From Clostridia bacterium (GTDB lineage: Bacteria; Bacillota; Clostridia; Oscillospirales; Acutalibacteraceae): 38,797 bases of DNA. A program made the position numbers and the translations under genes. Below the pieces are notes generated by a model, which saw only the letters and a program-made list of their open reading frames with translations, ran no database searches and was not told where the DNA came from. Positions 5,726-23,705 of the stretch are shown in pieces. The first letter of the stretch is position 1. The number at the start of each line of letters is the position of its first letter. The stretch is taken from contig JAFXAP010000002.1 of NCBI GenBank assembly GCA_017516965.1, positions 1-38,797 of the forward strand, given 5' to 3'.

Positions 5726-6931
5726 TTAAATGCTTTCGGTTTCATCAACGTCGAGGGTTTCTTCGTATGTGTTTTTGCTTTTTTTATTAACATATTGCTT
5801 GAAAACAGTGTATATAACTGTGCATACAGGTACGCTAAAGAGCATTCCACCTACGCCAAAAAGCGCTCCGCCAACGGTAACCGATGCCAAAACCCAAATA
5901 CCCGGAAGACCTACCGACTGACCAACAACCCTTGGGTATATGAGGTTGCCCTCAAGCTGTTGAAGTATAAGTATAAACACTATAAACCAAAATGCTTTAA
6001 TGGGGTCTTCAAAAAAGATTAATATTGCGCCTACACCCGTACCGATAAATGCGCCAAAAATTGGAACCAATGCGGTAACGCCAATTAAAACCGATATTAT
6101 ACCGGCATAGGGCATTCTGAAAATTGACATACCTATAAAGCAAAGAACACCTATTATACAAGCCTCGGTAAGCTGTCCTGTAACAAATTTTGCAAAAATA
6201 TTATTTGTAAGATTTGCAAGTTCTACCGTTCTTTCAGCTTTTTGAGGGCTAAATATTGCAAATACTGCCTTTTTGCATTGACGGCACAGTTTTTCTTTTT
6301 GTGAAAGAACATATATTGAAAATACTATTCCCAAAACAATGTCAACAACAACCGAAACAATCGAAGATGTTATGTCAAACGTTTTGCTAAACACACCTTG
6401 GAAAGCGTTAAGTTGAGGAGCCTCTTTGTTGCCGAAGAGCTCTTTAAGCGCCGGAAGCGTAATGTCATATTTTGCTAAAAATTCTACCAGTTGATTATAC
6501 CATTTTTCAGCAGTTACAGCATACTGAGGTATGCGGCTTGTAAACATCGAAACAGTTTCTTTTAGTGCCGGCAAAACCATAAACACAATAGCAAAAATCA
6601 TACCAAGCACAATCAAAAAACTTAAAACCAGACACAAGGGGCGTTTTATGATTAAAATTATTTTTTGATTCTTAAGATTTCGCCACAACCATAGCCAAAA
6701 TTTTTCTATTGGGCGAAGCAACAAATTTACAACATATGCCAAACAAAATCCAAAAACAAGCGGTGAAAATGCGCCGGTTACAAACGCCAACGCTGCCGTA
6801 AACTTTTCAGGATTAATGACCAAGGCAACCAAAGCAACCAAAATAAATATGGGTAAAATTGTGTATTTAAGTATACCCACGCTTCGTGACTTGTTAGTTG
6901 TAGATTTAATTAAAGGTTTGTTTTCCTTCAT
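5726..6931 (-). CDS. AI-2E family transporter (permease)
   Basis: A 401-residue polytopic membrane protein of the AI-2E transporter family (formerly the PerM/YdiK group). An N-terminal pair of hydrophobic helices is followed by a long middle region (residues ~120-200, FTSRIPQYAVTAEKWYNQLVEF) outside the membrane. The conserved C-terminal block FIGMSIFRMPYAGIISVLIGVTALVPIFGAFIG with GNLIYPRVVGQSVGLPGIWV is characteristic. Members transport varied substrates, including suggested sodium/proton exchange, so autoinducer-2 export should not be assumed. It starts two bases after the CNNM/CorC-type gene, so it is co-transcribed and under the same leader. A C-terminal acidic tail ends the protein. Confidence 0.9.
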   Translation of the reverse strand: MKENKPLIKSTTNKSRSVGILKYTILPIFILVALVALVINPEKFTAALAFVTGAFSPLVFGFCLAYVVNLLLRPIEKFWLWLWRNLKNQKIILIIKRPLCLVLSFLIVLGMIFAIVFMVLPALKETVSMFTSRIPQYAVTAEKWYNQLVEFLAKYDITLPALKELFGNKEAPQLNAFQGVFSKTFDITSSIVSVVVDIVLGIVFSIYVLSQKEKLCRQCKKAVFAIFSPQKAERTVELANLTNNIFAKFVTGQLTEACIIGVLCFIGMSIFRMPYAGIISVLIGVTALVPIFGAFIGTGVGAILIFFEDPIKAFWFIVFILILQQLEGNLIYPRVVGQSVGLPGIWVLASVTVGGALFGVGGMLFSVPVCTVIYTVFKQYVNKKSKNTYEETLDVDETESI

Positions 6932-8181: not shown

Positions 8182-8234
8182 TTTTTTATTAATTCTCCTT
8201 AAAGTTGTATGTTGTATTATTAGGGTAAATTTTT

Positions 8235-8363
8235 TCAGCTTAAAACCCTTTTTAGACGCAAAAAGGCATACCTCTGCCCCAAATAGAGCATAGGTACGCC
8301 ATTATATATACTTTTCATATTATTAGTATCGCCGTTATCGTCGCTACTGTCGCTACTGTCCAT
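8235..8363 (-). CDS. candidate 42-residue leader peptide, acidic N-terminus
   Basis: ATG at 8363, stop at 8235, wholly inside the leader of the CNNM transporter. The first 15 residues, MDSSDSSDDNGDTNN, contain five Asp and no basic residue; the rest is neutral to basic (LGQRYAFLRLKRVLS). A perfect AGGAGG lies 12 bases upstream, as far as the 13-base gap of the downstream transporter gene. Codons ~22-36 encode the intrinsic terminator, so translation would disrupt it. An alternative is a TTG at 8371, four bases after AGGAGG, in another frame, giving an 18-residue Thr/Val/Ala/Ile-rich peptide that ends at 8315. The sequence does not decide between them. No homology is recognised. Confidence 0.4.
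   Translation of the reverse strand: MDSSDSSDDNGDTNNMKSIYNGVPMLYLGQRYAFLRLKRVLS
8260..8300 (-). terminator. leader terminator (attenuator) of the CNNM transporter operon
   Basis: On the minus strand GGCGTACCT pairs with AGGTATGCC (nine pairs including one G-U) and is followed by five U. It lies between promoter and gene, not after a gene, so it is a premature terminator. A second small hairpin, CCTTTTT with AAAAAGG, uses the U-tract side and could compete with it. Confidence 0.7.
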
Positions 8364-8409
8364 TTAGACAATATTCCTCCTAAAAGAAAATATTTTAATC
8401 AGCAGTGGT

Positions 8410-8438
8410 ATTATACCAAACACACAGCTTTAAGTCAA
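8410..8438 (-). promoter_or_regulatory. promoter of the CNNM/AI-2E operon leader
   Basis: Minus strand: -35 TTGACT (8433-8438), 17-base spacer, -10 TATAAT (8410-8415). It lies directly after the stop of the DUF4838 gene and makes a leader of about 220 nt. Confidence 0.85.
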
Positions 8439-8446
8439 GTGTAATT

Positions 8447-10201
8447 TTAAAGCAGACTTTCCGCATCATATCTAAACGGAGCGGTATAAAGCACACCGCG
8501 TTCCATTCCATCCATCCACGCGCGGTATGTACGCTCAATATTTGTCCACTCGTCAAGGCGTGAAATATTATGTGCGCGAAGGTCGGTAAAGAATTGATTT
8601 ATTTTCTCGGCGTTATAGTTTCCGGCTAATACTTCATTCCAGAAAACATCGGCAAAGCGAATAGAAAGACGCGCCTTTTGCACACGCATAAGCCGCACTC
8701 CGTCGCCTGCTACTGCCGCTTCAGCCTTATCAAAAATACGATTATATTGCTCTAAGTGCGCATCATCAAGATATGGCGGACGTTTTGTATCCTGTATATA
8801 AAGGTGATAGTTTTCCCTTTCTACAAAATCGCACAGCATATTAAGATATTCTTCTAAGTGCGGTGCCGCATCACCATAATAATACTGCATAAACTCCTTG
8901 CGGTGACGCTCGATATCGCAATCAGGATTCCACATAAGTTTTGAAATCAAATAGGTACGAAGTTCGTTAAAATCAACGCCACCATTGCGAGCGCAGTTTG
9001 CCTCTTCAAAAACACCCTTTACGTTATATTTTGCAAGGGTTTTAAGATTTGGTTGAAGCACTCTCCAGTTAGGAAACGGCATTGGGTAAAGCGGAAAGTT
9101 TGATGTATAATCCCAAACGTAAAGTCTTTCGCACACCTTACTCCAATCTATAAGGTCCTCTATAAATAAACTCGTCTTTCCGTTTGGATGTTTAACTGCG
9201 CGGGTGCGATCATCACACTTATCATAAGGGTGCGCAAAACAGGTGGAACTTGCGCAAAGACGCACACAAACGTTATGTCTTGTTTGTGTTTTTCTTGAAG
9301 CGGGTCTTGTATAGTGATATGCAAGTATATCAAACATAACATCAGGAAACTCGGGTTCTAAAATTTCGGCTACACGGTTTACAAATTTAATAAGTGTGCC
9401 TGCAGGCGAACCCTCATCAGCATCCGATTTAAGACAGTTTTCGCACTGACAGCTATACGGATTATCGTTTTGTGAAATCGACAGTATTTTTTTGTCAGGA
9501 TTTTCTTTTAAAATTTTACGGGCATTGTCAACAACTATATCAAGAATATCGGGATTTGTAAGGCAAAGTTGCCAATGGTCATCCTTTATCGACTGACGTC
9601 TGCCGTTATAAAATGAAAAATATTCAGGGTGCGTGTCGCGGTACTGTTCGTGTGGCACAAGTCTCGCAAAGCTGTGCGCGCCCAAAGCATATCTTATGCT
9701 TCCACCCAACATTTCGGGCATACCGCTCCATCTACCGTTATTGCGACACATTGATGCAAACTTAGAATATTTTTGTATATCGCCGTAATCGGTATCGCGA
9801 AACTCGAAAACAGGTTTTTCACGTTTTTGTATATCGCCTATCTCAAGTTTTGTAAGTGTGGGTATTTTTTCGCAGTGCGGTGTAAAAAACCGGCATCCCA
9901 ACATTTCAAGCAATTCGTAACCGCCGTAAATGACACCGCGTTTTCCTCCGCGTATATAAACACTGTTTCCCATAGTGTTGATTGAAAACTCATCATCAAG
10001 ATAACTTTTATCAAGTTCAATGTATAACCCGTTTTCGCCCTGATTTGTGTCTACCTTTATTTGAAACGGCGCGGTGGTAATTCTTGCAAGATAATACCTA
10101 AGCTGCGTTGCAATAAACCAAACCTGTGAATTATATTTATCAAAATCATTTTCCGGCACAAAAATTGGACCAAACGGCACACGGTTTTCAGCTAAAATCA
10201 T
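8447..10201 (-). CDS. DUF4838 protein, glycoside-hydrolase-like
   Basis: A 584-residue protein. An N-terminal domain (~1-115) resembles the GH20/GH67-associated alpha/beta domain (GVIYGGYELLEMLGCRFFTPHCEKIP). The DUF4838 barrel follows (~130-420) with ISQNDNPYSCQCENC, LIKFVNRVAEIL, YVWDYTSNFPLYPMPFPNW and VFEEANCARNGG. The C-terminus is helical. The fold resembles alpha-glucuronidase-type enzymes, and DUF4838 proteins occur in polysaccharide-use loci, but substrate and activity are not established. No signal peptide is present, so it acts in the cytoplasm, probably on an imported oligosaccharide. It is divergent from the GH94 gene with only 135 bases between, which suggests shared control. 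Confidence 0.85.
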   Translation of the reverse strand: MILAENRVPFGPIFVPENDFDKYNSQVWFIATQLRYYLARITTAPFQIKVDTNQGENGLYIELDKSYLDDEFSINTMGNSVYIRGGKRGVIYGGYELLEMLGCRFFTPHCEKIPTLTKLEIGDIQKREKPVFEFRDTDYGDIQKYSKFASMCRNNGRWSGMPEMLGGSIRYALGAHSFARLVPHEQYRDTHPEYFSFYNGRRQSIKDDHWQLCLTNPDILDIVVDNARKILKENPDKKILSISQNDNPYSCQCENCLKSDADEGSPAGTLIKFVNRVAEILEPEFPDVMFDILAYHYTRPASRKTQTRHNVCVRLCASSTCFAHPYDKCDDRTRAVKHPNGKTSLFIEDLIDWSKVCERLYVWDYTSNFPLYPMPFPNWRVLQPNLKTLAKYNVKGVFEEANCARNGGVDFNELRTYLISKLMWNPDCDIERHRKEFMQYYYGDAAPHLEEYLNMLCDFVERENYHLYIQDTKRPPYLDDAHLEQYNRIFDKAEAAVAGDGVRLMRVQKARLSIRFADVFWNEVLAGNYNAEKINQFFTDLRAHNISRLDEWTNIERTYRAWMDGMERGVLYTAPFRYDAESLL

Positions 10202-12904: not shown

Positions 12905-13186
12905 ATATTTTAAAAGCTATGATAAAGAAAAGTAACGGTATAAACGGTGCTTAGTGAGTGGCAGATAGTGTAAATGCCGCCATACGCATACCGCGAAGAA
13001 CACTTTGGAGCTGCAAACCCAAAAGTTAACACTTAGTAGGGGCGCCGTGGGCGGCACGTTAAAGCCGATAACAGTTTTAGCTGTGAGTGACTGTGGTTAC
13101 ACAGTAATACGGGTGGCACCGCGAGTAGTTGTTAATGCGCTATTCGTCCCTGATTTTTCAGAGGATGAATAGCGCTTATTAGTTTT
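12905..13186 (+). ncRNA. T-box leader, asparagine-specific
   Basis: The T-box signature is present at about 13110-13123 (GGGTGGCACCGCGAG), preceded by a stem I region and followed by an intrinsic terminator. The likely specifier is AAC at 12999-13001 (context GAAGAACACTTT), an asparagine codon, which matches the downstream asnS and asnA. T-boxes read uncharged tRNA through specifier and antiterminator pairing, so low Asn-tRNA charging would raise both genes. The 5' boundary is approximate. Confidence 0.93.
13137..13186 (+). terminator. T-box terminator
   Basis: GCGCTATTCGTCC (13137-13149) pairs with GGATGAATAGCGC (13163-13175) over 13 pairs with one G-U, followed by TTATTAGTTTT. It is the default off-state structure; the antiterminator uses the T-box bulge upstream. 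Confidence 0.88.
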
Positions 13187-16923: not shown

Positions 16924-17254
16924 TGCGAGTTGGTTACGCGGTTGCGCATACTTTGTATGTGAGGAAAGTCCGAGCCCCACAGGGCAGAATAACAGCTAAC
17001 GGCTGCCGAGGGTGACCTTAGGGAAAGTGCAACAGAGATATACCGCCGCTTTAAGCGGTAAGGGTGGAAAGGCGAGGTAAGAGCTCACCTACCAAATGGA
17101 GACATATTGGTACTGTAAACCCTATTTGGAGCAACGCTGACTGTGGCTATACATTGGCCCGATGTGCCACGAAAAGCGGCTTGAGCGCACAGGCGACTGT
17201 GCGTCGAGATAGATGACCGCGCACGACAGAACTCGGCTTATAGACCAAGTCGCA
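16924..17254 (+). ncRNA. rnpB: RNase P RNA, bacterial class A
   Basis: The catalytic RNA that trims tRNA 5' ends. All core regions are present: GAGGAAAGTCCGAGCCCC near 16965, AGGGTGACCTTAGGGAAAGT near 17010, CAACAGAGATATACCGCC, GAGGTAAGAGCTCACC, and the 3' core GATAGATGACCGC with ACGACAGAACTCGGCTTATAG. The ends TGCGAGTTGGT and ACCAAGTCGCA pair as P1 with one mismatch. About 331 nt, a normal size. The encoded tRNAs in this window carry CCA, consistent with GGU-type 3' recognition. Confidence 0.96.
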
Positions 17255-17256
17255 TT

Positions 17257-23578: not shown

Positions 23579-23587
23579 ATAAACAAT

Positions 23588-23680
23588 CTTATCTTTCGGA
23601 TAATCCGCAGGATTTGGCACCTTGAAAACTCAGGTTGCCGGACTTCATAGGGCCTGTACCCTCCGTCACTCTTGATAAGG
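23588..23680 (-). ncRNA. SAM-I (S-box) riboswitch
   Basis: Minus strand shows the S-box consensus in order: CTTATCAAGAGTGACGGAGG, GGCCCTATGAAGTCCGGCAACC, AAGGTGCCAAATCCTGC, and GAAAGATAAG closing P1 with CTTATC. SAM binding favours the terminator at 23541-23578, lowering metK-metY-metA transcription. Confidence 0.97.
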
Positions 23681-23705
23681 ACTATATATTTATTTGTCGT
23701 GTAGT

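Follow-up and report, generated by a model that had tools for sequence, protein, structure and literature searches.

A short gene for an acidic peptide, usually overlapping a transcription terminator, precedes likely Mg2+ exporter genes in many gut Clostridia. Our analysis centers on one such leader in a stretch of 38,797 nucleotides (the window), where it stands ahead of a gene for a CNNM/CorB-type transporter. The leader is real and conserved and, judged by its layout, very probably a translation-coupled attenuator. We give a probability of about 0.6 to a more specific reading, in which the acidic nascent chain would act as the Mg2+ gauge of this attenuator and control a Mg2+ exporter of the CNNM/CorB type. 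The ribosome itself would then probably sense whether Mg2+ is sufficient for the exporter to be expressed. As far as the literature we searched goes, Mg2+ sensing by acidic nascent chains was previously known from a few enterobacterial genes, and we found no earlier description there of an acidic leader of CNNM genes in Clostridia (most subscription papers lay outside the scope of that search).

The leader region of the window

Read on the minus strand, the leader region separates a DUF4838 gene (stop at 8447) from the CNNM gene. Its parts and the two genes that follow are listed below; the CNNM gene was assigned by Pfam, and the Shine-Dalgarno motifs and the U-tract were read from the letters.

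8438-8433 (-35) and 8415-8410 (-10), minus strand: sigma-70-type promoter TTGACT-17-TATAAT, 11/12 match, with TG ahead of the -10
8381-8376, minus strand: Shine-Dalgarno sequence of the leader, AGGAGG, 12 nt from the ATG
8363-8235 including the stop codon, minus strand: leader ORF of 42 codons, ATG at 8363, starting MDSSDSSDDNGD
8360-8328, minus strand: stretch of acidic and small residues, leader codons 2-12
8300-8265, minus strand: terminator hairpin within the leader ORF, codons 22-33, -22.4 kcal/mol
8264-8260, minus strand: U-tract of the terminator, TTTTT (U5)
8200-8195, minus strand: Shine-Dalgarno sequence of the CNNM gene, AAGGAG
8181-6934, minus strand: CNNM/CorB-type transporter gene, 415 aa, the presumed regulated gene
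5726-6931, minus strand: gene of the AI-2E transporter family (PF01594), directly downstream of the CNNM gene with a 2-nt gap

The leader ORF translates to MDSSDSSDDNGDTNNMKSIYNGVPMLYLGQRYAFLRLKRVLS. An earlier note on this DNA had reported the order of promoter, AGGAGG, 42-codon ORF, internal terminator and CNNM/CorC gene, and it was right in both coordinates and description. One point about the ORF start calls for slight correction: the 12-nt distance to the Shine-Dalgarno sequence is long, and in the genus of the window this sequence has a closer candidate start in the +1 frame, a TTG. Spacings of 9-14 nt are found in 44 of the 55 leaders in which our script recognised a Shine-Dalgarno core, which is unusually long, as though initiation were meant to be weak or slow. 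The TTG opens a reading frame (8371-8315, minus strand) that begins LSKWTVATVATITAILII and crosses the same repeats. Among the 73 regions of our survey with both a leader and a strong terminator (see below), 53 have a recognised Shine-Dalgarno sequence, and 12 of these have an alternative start codon 3-10 nt after it. Seven of the 12 are the +1-frame TTG of the window's genus, with a peptide of 18 residues (17 in the orthologue L007); of the five remaining cases, a single one falls in the +1 frame, and its reading frame terminates immediately. The TTG ORF was not seen in the other leaders checked, and we stayed with the frame of the ATG ORF.

A fold of 225 nt contains the same hairpin as the feature list, with a z-score of -2.6. 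The terminator is absent from the list of a consensus scanner, probably because of a mismatch in the stem. Rfam covariance models gave no matches at gathering scores in 8182-8446, and below these scores the window leader had three chance-level matches only (E 0.54-2.9). A riboswitch was rejected as an explanation of the leader because no Rfam family matches. The leader peptides we tried, which are very short, have no match in Pfam or NCBIfam. Elsewhere in the window there are a T-box leader (12910-13154, plus strand), a SAM riboswitch (23586-23681, minus strand) and an RNase P RNA (16926-17256, plus strand).

The protein encoded behind the leader contains PF01595 (CNNM), a CBS pair and CorC_HlyC, each above the Pfam cut-off, and the solved structures nearest to it by sequence are 7m1t (E 4e-54) and 7m1u (E 5e-52). 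It is the sole CNNM match in its genome assembly, which is 84.9% complete, and it is presumably a Mg2+ exporter. The AI-2E-family gene is possibly co-transcribed with it, to judge from the short gap.

Conservation in the genus and across Clostridia

The 42-aa peptide is too short for a homology search, so relatives were sought through the CNNM gene; a search of 300 family genomes (4 of the genus) with the peptide matched the window alone. Six of the 36 other genomes of the genus carry a CNNM protein 84-90% identical to that of the window. All six share its promoter and have a leader and the terminator, and the first 15 leader residues are identical in five. The leader of L007 reads MDSDDSSDNGNCC and has its stop within the hairpin loop. 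Judged by the upstream letters, the end of the DUF4838 gene just before the promoter also seems conserved in five of the six (L003-L007; L002 lacks it).

The terminator hairpin is maintained through paired substitutions in the genus. In an alignment of 7 sequences 99.0% of the cells are paired, and 4 of the 15 pairs show changes on both sides. This number of both-sided pairs was matched by 10 of 500 shuffles and the covariation score by none of 500, and sliding the hairpin partner lowered pairing to 29.5-57.1%, in a control biased towards any structure that was drawn from one of the sequences. The same genus also has CNNM paralogues of about 40% identity, the second genes of tandem CNNM pairs. 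None of these 16 has the leader, nor does the leader stand ahead of the first gene in any of the 16 pairs.

For a wider survey, the CNNM protein served as bait in 394 genomes of the order, 80 named contigs and 299 genomes of the phylum. Upstream DNA was read for part of the CNNM genes found, giving 193 regions, from which 12 redundant ones were removed to leave 181. Left out of the set are L008-L012 (L008, L009, L010 and L012 are present as L033, L034, L039 and L049), L036, L058 and L059 (short flank), L118 (contig edge), L228 and L230 (CNNM match with an internal stop) and L245 and L246 (second matches). A loose rule asked for a leader ORF that starts with small and acidic residues, with bulk judged at residues 2-6. 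Rule A asked for an acidic residue 2 and at least three D/E within residues 2-10, rule B for D/E plus Pro, and the stricter rule C for an acidic residue 2, at least two D/E and the absence of bulky or basic residues at 2-6. As controls we used 20 dinucleotide shuffles and 284 other genes out of 20 stretches of 20 kb.

The loose rule, drafted like the other three after reading leaders, finds a leader ORF in 103 of the 181 non-redundant regions, a set that holds a few likely false leaders (e.g., L195, L196, L198, L225, L236 and L244). Rule A is passed by 68 of the 181, against a shuffled mean of 3.65 (maximum 8), and by 11 of the 284 other genes (2 of the 118 among these with a gap of at least 150 nt). 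Rule B is passed by 89 (shuffled mean 7.95, maximum 11) and by 14 of the other genes, and rule C by 79 (shuffled mean 1.3, maximum 3) and by none of the 284. With the rules unchanged, we also scored a later set, the best CNNM loci of one family (f21). After six of 30 loci that had been met before were dropped, 23 of the remaining 24 passed at least one rule (A 17, B 21, C 16). When 8 peptides already seen (compared by eye) are taken out as well, 15 of 16 pass; the sole failure reads MGEPPRGNCNC.

The peptides diverge within the same layout, for example MDSDSSDDYDNC, MDGDSSEDDTAN, MDSCSCPDPNNP, MDDADSDADRNR, VDEPPPSNNC, MDEPPRDNF, MSDPDPAGRL and, in Hungatella hathewayi, MPDNAPEDAAPY. Starts that combine acidic residues with proline (MDEPPR, VDEPPPS, MSDPDP) occur in related CNNM clades (L107, L109, L114, L126, L144, L173, L175, L181 and others). 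Among loci with family codes, a leader with a strong terminator is found in 11 families of the order (f1, f3, f7, f13, f14 and f16-f21). The acidic leader ORF also extends to genomes of named Lachnospiraceae and Clostridiaceae. Besides Hungatella hathewayi, the named carriers include Lactonifactor longoviformis and Gemmiger gallinarum, the latter less typical, with the stem far downstream.

In a tree of 141 CNNM proteins, the inner clade around the window protein has 70 rows, 60 of them with a leader by the loose rule. Two of the exceptions, L066 and L067, still have the terminator together with a short ORF poor in acidic residues (MKGDSNGRS and MGSSCSPDN). In L106 an acidic ORF lies nearer to the CNNM gene than the leader rule permits, in L095 it has no recognised Shine-Dalgarno sequence, and the ORF of L087 starts MQSD. 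We saw no leader in L088, L092, L099, L101 and L110. L099 and L110 are on contigs labelled Lentisphaerae/Lentisphaeria with the CNNM protein inside the Clostridial clade, which points to transfer or mis-binning. Among 21 CNNM upstream regions from the phylum-wide sample, all outside the order, the loose rule flags L222, L225, L236 and L244, of which we regard only L222 (VDDPVPRLC) as leader-like. A stringent DNA pattern, which overlooks many leaders including that of the window, has 14 matches in 388 genomes of the order, 9 of them upstream of CNNM genes, against 4 for the reversed pattern; three of the 5 matches elsewhere sit in frames that stay open upstream for 247 codons or more.

Counting as strong a hairpin below -14 kcal/mol plus a U-tract, we find a strong terminator after 73 of the 103 leaders and in 8 of 103 shuffled stretches. 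Leaderless CNNM regions have one in 14 of 78 cases (Fisher p 6.6e-13), a comparison in which leaders were scanned from leader start to gene and leaderless regions, distant groups included, over the last 200 nt. Counted from the start codon, the hairpin typically spans nt 60 (median stem start) to nt 101 (median end). The stem stays free in 72 of the 73 regions when the ribosome holds the last acidic codon in its P site, and a ribosome at the stop codon, with a footprint of 15 nt, passes the stem start in 71. The earlier note had suggested looking in relatives for a conserved acidic ORF that occurs together with the terminator, and had envisaged a ribosome that drops off the acidic stretch at low Mg2+ and otherwise reads through it and covers the stem. 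In the parts that sequence can test, the leaders in all six orthologues of the genus and in at least 11 families of the order, the excess of terminators behind leaders, and this spacing all agree with the note.

A promoter of at least 10/12 stands upstream of 59 of the 73 leader-plus-terminator regions, against 3% of shuffles that preserve base content only. The distance from the end of the -10 to the leader start has a median of 38 nt in the 67 regions with a promoter of at least 9/12, a threshold reached by 24% of the same shuffles.

The acidic chain as a candidate Mg2+ gauge

The mechanism we propose would work as follows. The transcript would begin about 30-40 nt ahead of the short leader ORF, and the first codons would lead the ribosome into a run of Asp whose other residues are all small (Ser, Gly, Cys, Asn, Ala, Pro), where no bulky residue would anchor the short acidic chain in the exit tunnel. 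At low free Mg2+ (or low general ribosome stability) the ribosome would pause or fall off near codons 3-10. With the ribosome stalled or gone, the RNA of codons ~20-34 would form the intrinsic terminator, and transcription would stop before the exporter gene. At high Mg2+ the ribosome would clear the acidic run and cover the terminator's 5' arm, and the polymerase would continue into the exporter gene.

Across the 67 terminator-bearing leaders of 18 residues or more, D/E make up 43% of residues 2-9 (Asp 207, Glu 21) and bulky or basic residues 4%, whereas residues 13-20 have 6% and 54%, a contrast that stems in part from the selection rule on residues 2-6. At residues 6-9, where only residue 6 falls under that rule, the bulky or basic share is 8%. 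Short acidic chains without bulky residues are reportedly worse for the ribosome, with nothing to anchor the chain in the tunnel, and the scarcity of bulky residues in the leaders would fit this effect. Asp exceeds Glu ten to one at residues 2-9, which acidity alone does not explain. It is unlikely that the peptide is made for its own sake, since its C-terminal half is mostly encoded by the terminator and its end varies: among the 73 regions the stop codon precedes the stem in 11, falls within it in 27 and lies beyond it in 35.

Studies on enterobacterial leaders describe acidic codons that destabilise ribosomes in MgtL, where this is used to sense Mg2+ (PMC11282234), and Asp2 and Glu5 of MgtQ that appear to abort translation (PMC8092293). 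Salmonella corC is reported to be induced by high Mg2+, and the start of CorC/YbeX to destabilise ribosomes (PMC12421838). The proposed sense of regulation, with an exporter switched on at high Mg2+, matches this precedent. In the 73 regions, an antiterminator duplex with the 5' arm of the terminator reaches z < -2 in one. No upstream segment clearly out-pairs shuffles, so that the ribosome is the only antiterminator in sight.

Timing puts a demand on the mechanism. In an E. coli study, translation took only ~10% off the efficiency of a terminator placed 30 bp into an ORF, because the first ribosome has not caught up within ~100 bp, where a terminator largely escapes repression (PMC4824070). 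Since the hairpins here end at a median of nt 101, the mechanism would require RNA polymerase to pause or to move slowly. According to the same source, pyrBI and similar leader attenuators solve this problem by pausing (PMC4824070).

Nor is the leader family uniform, as the low-acid L066 and L067 and the terminator-poor xDEPP and MSDPDP leaders indicate. The 30 of 103 leaders without a strong terminator include 11 of 15 xDEPP starts and all three MSDPDP rows, and hence a single mechanism cannot serve all. The acidic-proline leaders, mostly without a strong intrinsic terminator, are nearer to MgtL in motif and perhaps use another route of control. L066 and L067 are natural test cases for the loss of the sensor.

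One could also argue that the same attenuator answers to a signal other than Mg2+. General ribosome stability or elongation, as affected by polyamines, antibiotics or ABC-F proteins, might take its place, and the cargo of the CNNM protein may be polyamines or some other cation. The polyamine exporter PaeA is reported to share the CNNM-type domain layout (PMC12421838), and the PaeA model scores 166 bits against the window protein, where its cut-off is 500. EttA is described as relieving pausing at early acidic residues, those of MgtL included (PMC11282234), and bmrB of B. subtilis as responding to ribosome-targeting antibiotics (PMC4191407). We nevertheless consider a different signal unlikely: studies of related bacterial CNNM/CorB proteins, namely MpfA (PMC5122736) as well as CorB and B. 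subtilis YhdP (PMC8242095), link them to Mg2+ transport or protection.

A second alternative, that initiation or coupling alone regulates and ribosome loading simply protects the transcript, would leave the acidic N-terminus to be explained otherwise, for instance as an unstructured start of the mRNA (GAC-AGT-AGC repeats). Several observations are in its favour. First, Ser codons at residues 2-12 are AGY in 124 cases and TCN in 15, which acidity alone does not explain, and in the genus the nucleotides are near-identical even at synonymous sites. Second, the +1 frame is open over 15 codons in 48 of the 73 regions. Third, L066 and L067 retain the layout with little acid. Against it, distant clades reach an acidic, non-bulky start by other codons and residues (MDDADSDAD, MDEPPR), and the ORF frame is the best conserved one. 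Single-base codon changes are synonymous/nonsynonymous in the ratio 44/41 in the ORF frame versus 36/79 and 25/77 in the other frames, counted over 36 non-independent pairs that are 70-97% identical over the first codons. In distant pairs the mean BLOSUM62 score is 0.89 in the ORF frame and 0.37 and -0.83 in the others, and changes by codon position (354 third, 297 first, 248 second) show a weak third-position bias. The preference for the ORF frame thus appears clear but not overwhelming, and regulation by initiation or coupling alone seems to us quite improbable.

An amino-acid attenuator, with the ribosome stalling at Asp, Ser, Asn or Cys codons when charged tRNA is scarce, would make sense of a Ser content of 24% at residues 2-9, almost all of it encoded by AGY, and of the Asn and Cys that are common at residues 10-13. 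We find it very improbable, for the following reasons. First, the regulated gene codes for a cation transporter. Second, acidic residues are the only ones common to all types of leader (DSSD, DDAD, DEPP). Third, no antiterminator was found, so that starvation, by stalling the ribosome early, would keep the terminator uncovered and shut the gene off. Finally, we give next to no credence to a chance ORF or the end of an ordinary upstream gene in front of a constitutive terminator that lowers expression: short ORFs are common and the loosest rule was tuned on leaders already seen, but rule C separates CNNM genes from other genes and from shuffles, the promoter is regularly placed, and the non-repeated leaders of the later set passed with one exception.

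We return to the acidic chain as a Mg2+ gauge. Whether Clostridia in general use such ribosome-based gauges for exporters, with the acidic chain as sensor, the ribosome as antiterminator and a sign opposite to that of MgtL, is in our judgement an even bet. If the gauge is real, the same physics would be in wide use for the opposite purpose, namely turning export on once Mg2+ is plentiful. Bacterial CNNM genes would gain a regulatory logic, and experiments on which nascent chains destabilise ribosomes would have many natural variants to draw on. The Asp/Ser, Asp/Ala and Glu-Pro-Pro solutions on related CNNM clades would make ribosome stability a recurrent cation sensor beyond the enterobacteria.

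Comparison with known systems

The M-box riboswitch is a cis-acting Mg2+ sensor before transporter genes in Firmicutes. It differs in being a folded RNA without a leader ORF, and the window leader, as noted, matches no Rfam family at gathering scores. The leader does have the features of an attenuator, that is, a short ORF with a ribosome-binding site between promoter and gene and an intrinsic terminator within reach of the leader ribosome. A mutually exclusive antiterminator fold of the trp type was not found in the 73 regions, and we do not claim membership of that type.

A Firmicute precedent is BmrB of bmrCD in B. subtilis, a leader ORF with an internal intrinsic terminator whose regulation is reported to need translation. 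It differs in its signal, ribosome-targeting antibiotics, in its three alternative stem-loops and in controlling a drug transporter (PMC4191407). MgtQ of mgtCBR in Salmonella is likewise a short ORF in which an abort at Asp2/Glu5 controls a Mg2+ transporter gene. As described, it acts on translation by freeing a ribosome-binding site, and it controls an importer (PMC8092293).

In corC/ybeX of enterobacteria we have a CorC-family gene whose expression increases with Mg2+ and whose N-terminal codons reportedly destabilise ribosomes (PMC12421838). There the destabilising sequence is, in the account given, the start of the CorC protein itself, whereas the CNNM leader of Clostridia is a separate ORF with a terminator, before a gene for a full membrane CNNM protein.

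A further related system is MgtL of mgtA in Salmonella and E. coli, a short leader ORF with acidic residues and proline after the Met, before a Mg2+ transporter gene (PMC11282234). The CNNM leaders share its acidic and/or acidic-proline residues in the first codons, and the D/E-plus-Pro starts MDEPPR, VDEPPPS and MSDPDP resemble its EPDP motif (PMC11282234). In MgtL, Mg2+-dependent destabilisation of the ribosome is described as setting transcription termination (PMC11282234), and by analogy we propose the same for the CNNM leaders. MgtL is reported to control an importer gene, which is switched on when the ribosome drops off, by way of a Rho-dependent terminator and a rearrangement of the RNA. 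The CNNM leader, in contrast, precedes a presumed exporter, carries an intrinsic terminator within the ORF and has no alternative fold that we could find, and the predicted sign of its response to Mg2+ is the opposite.
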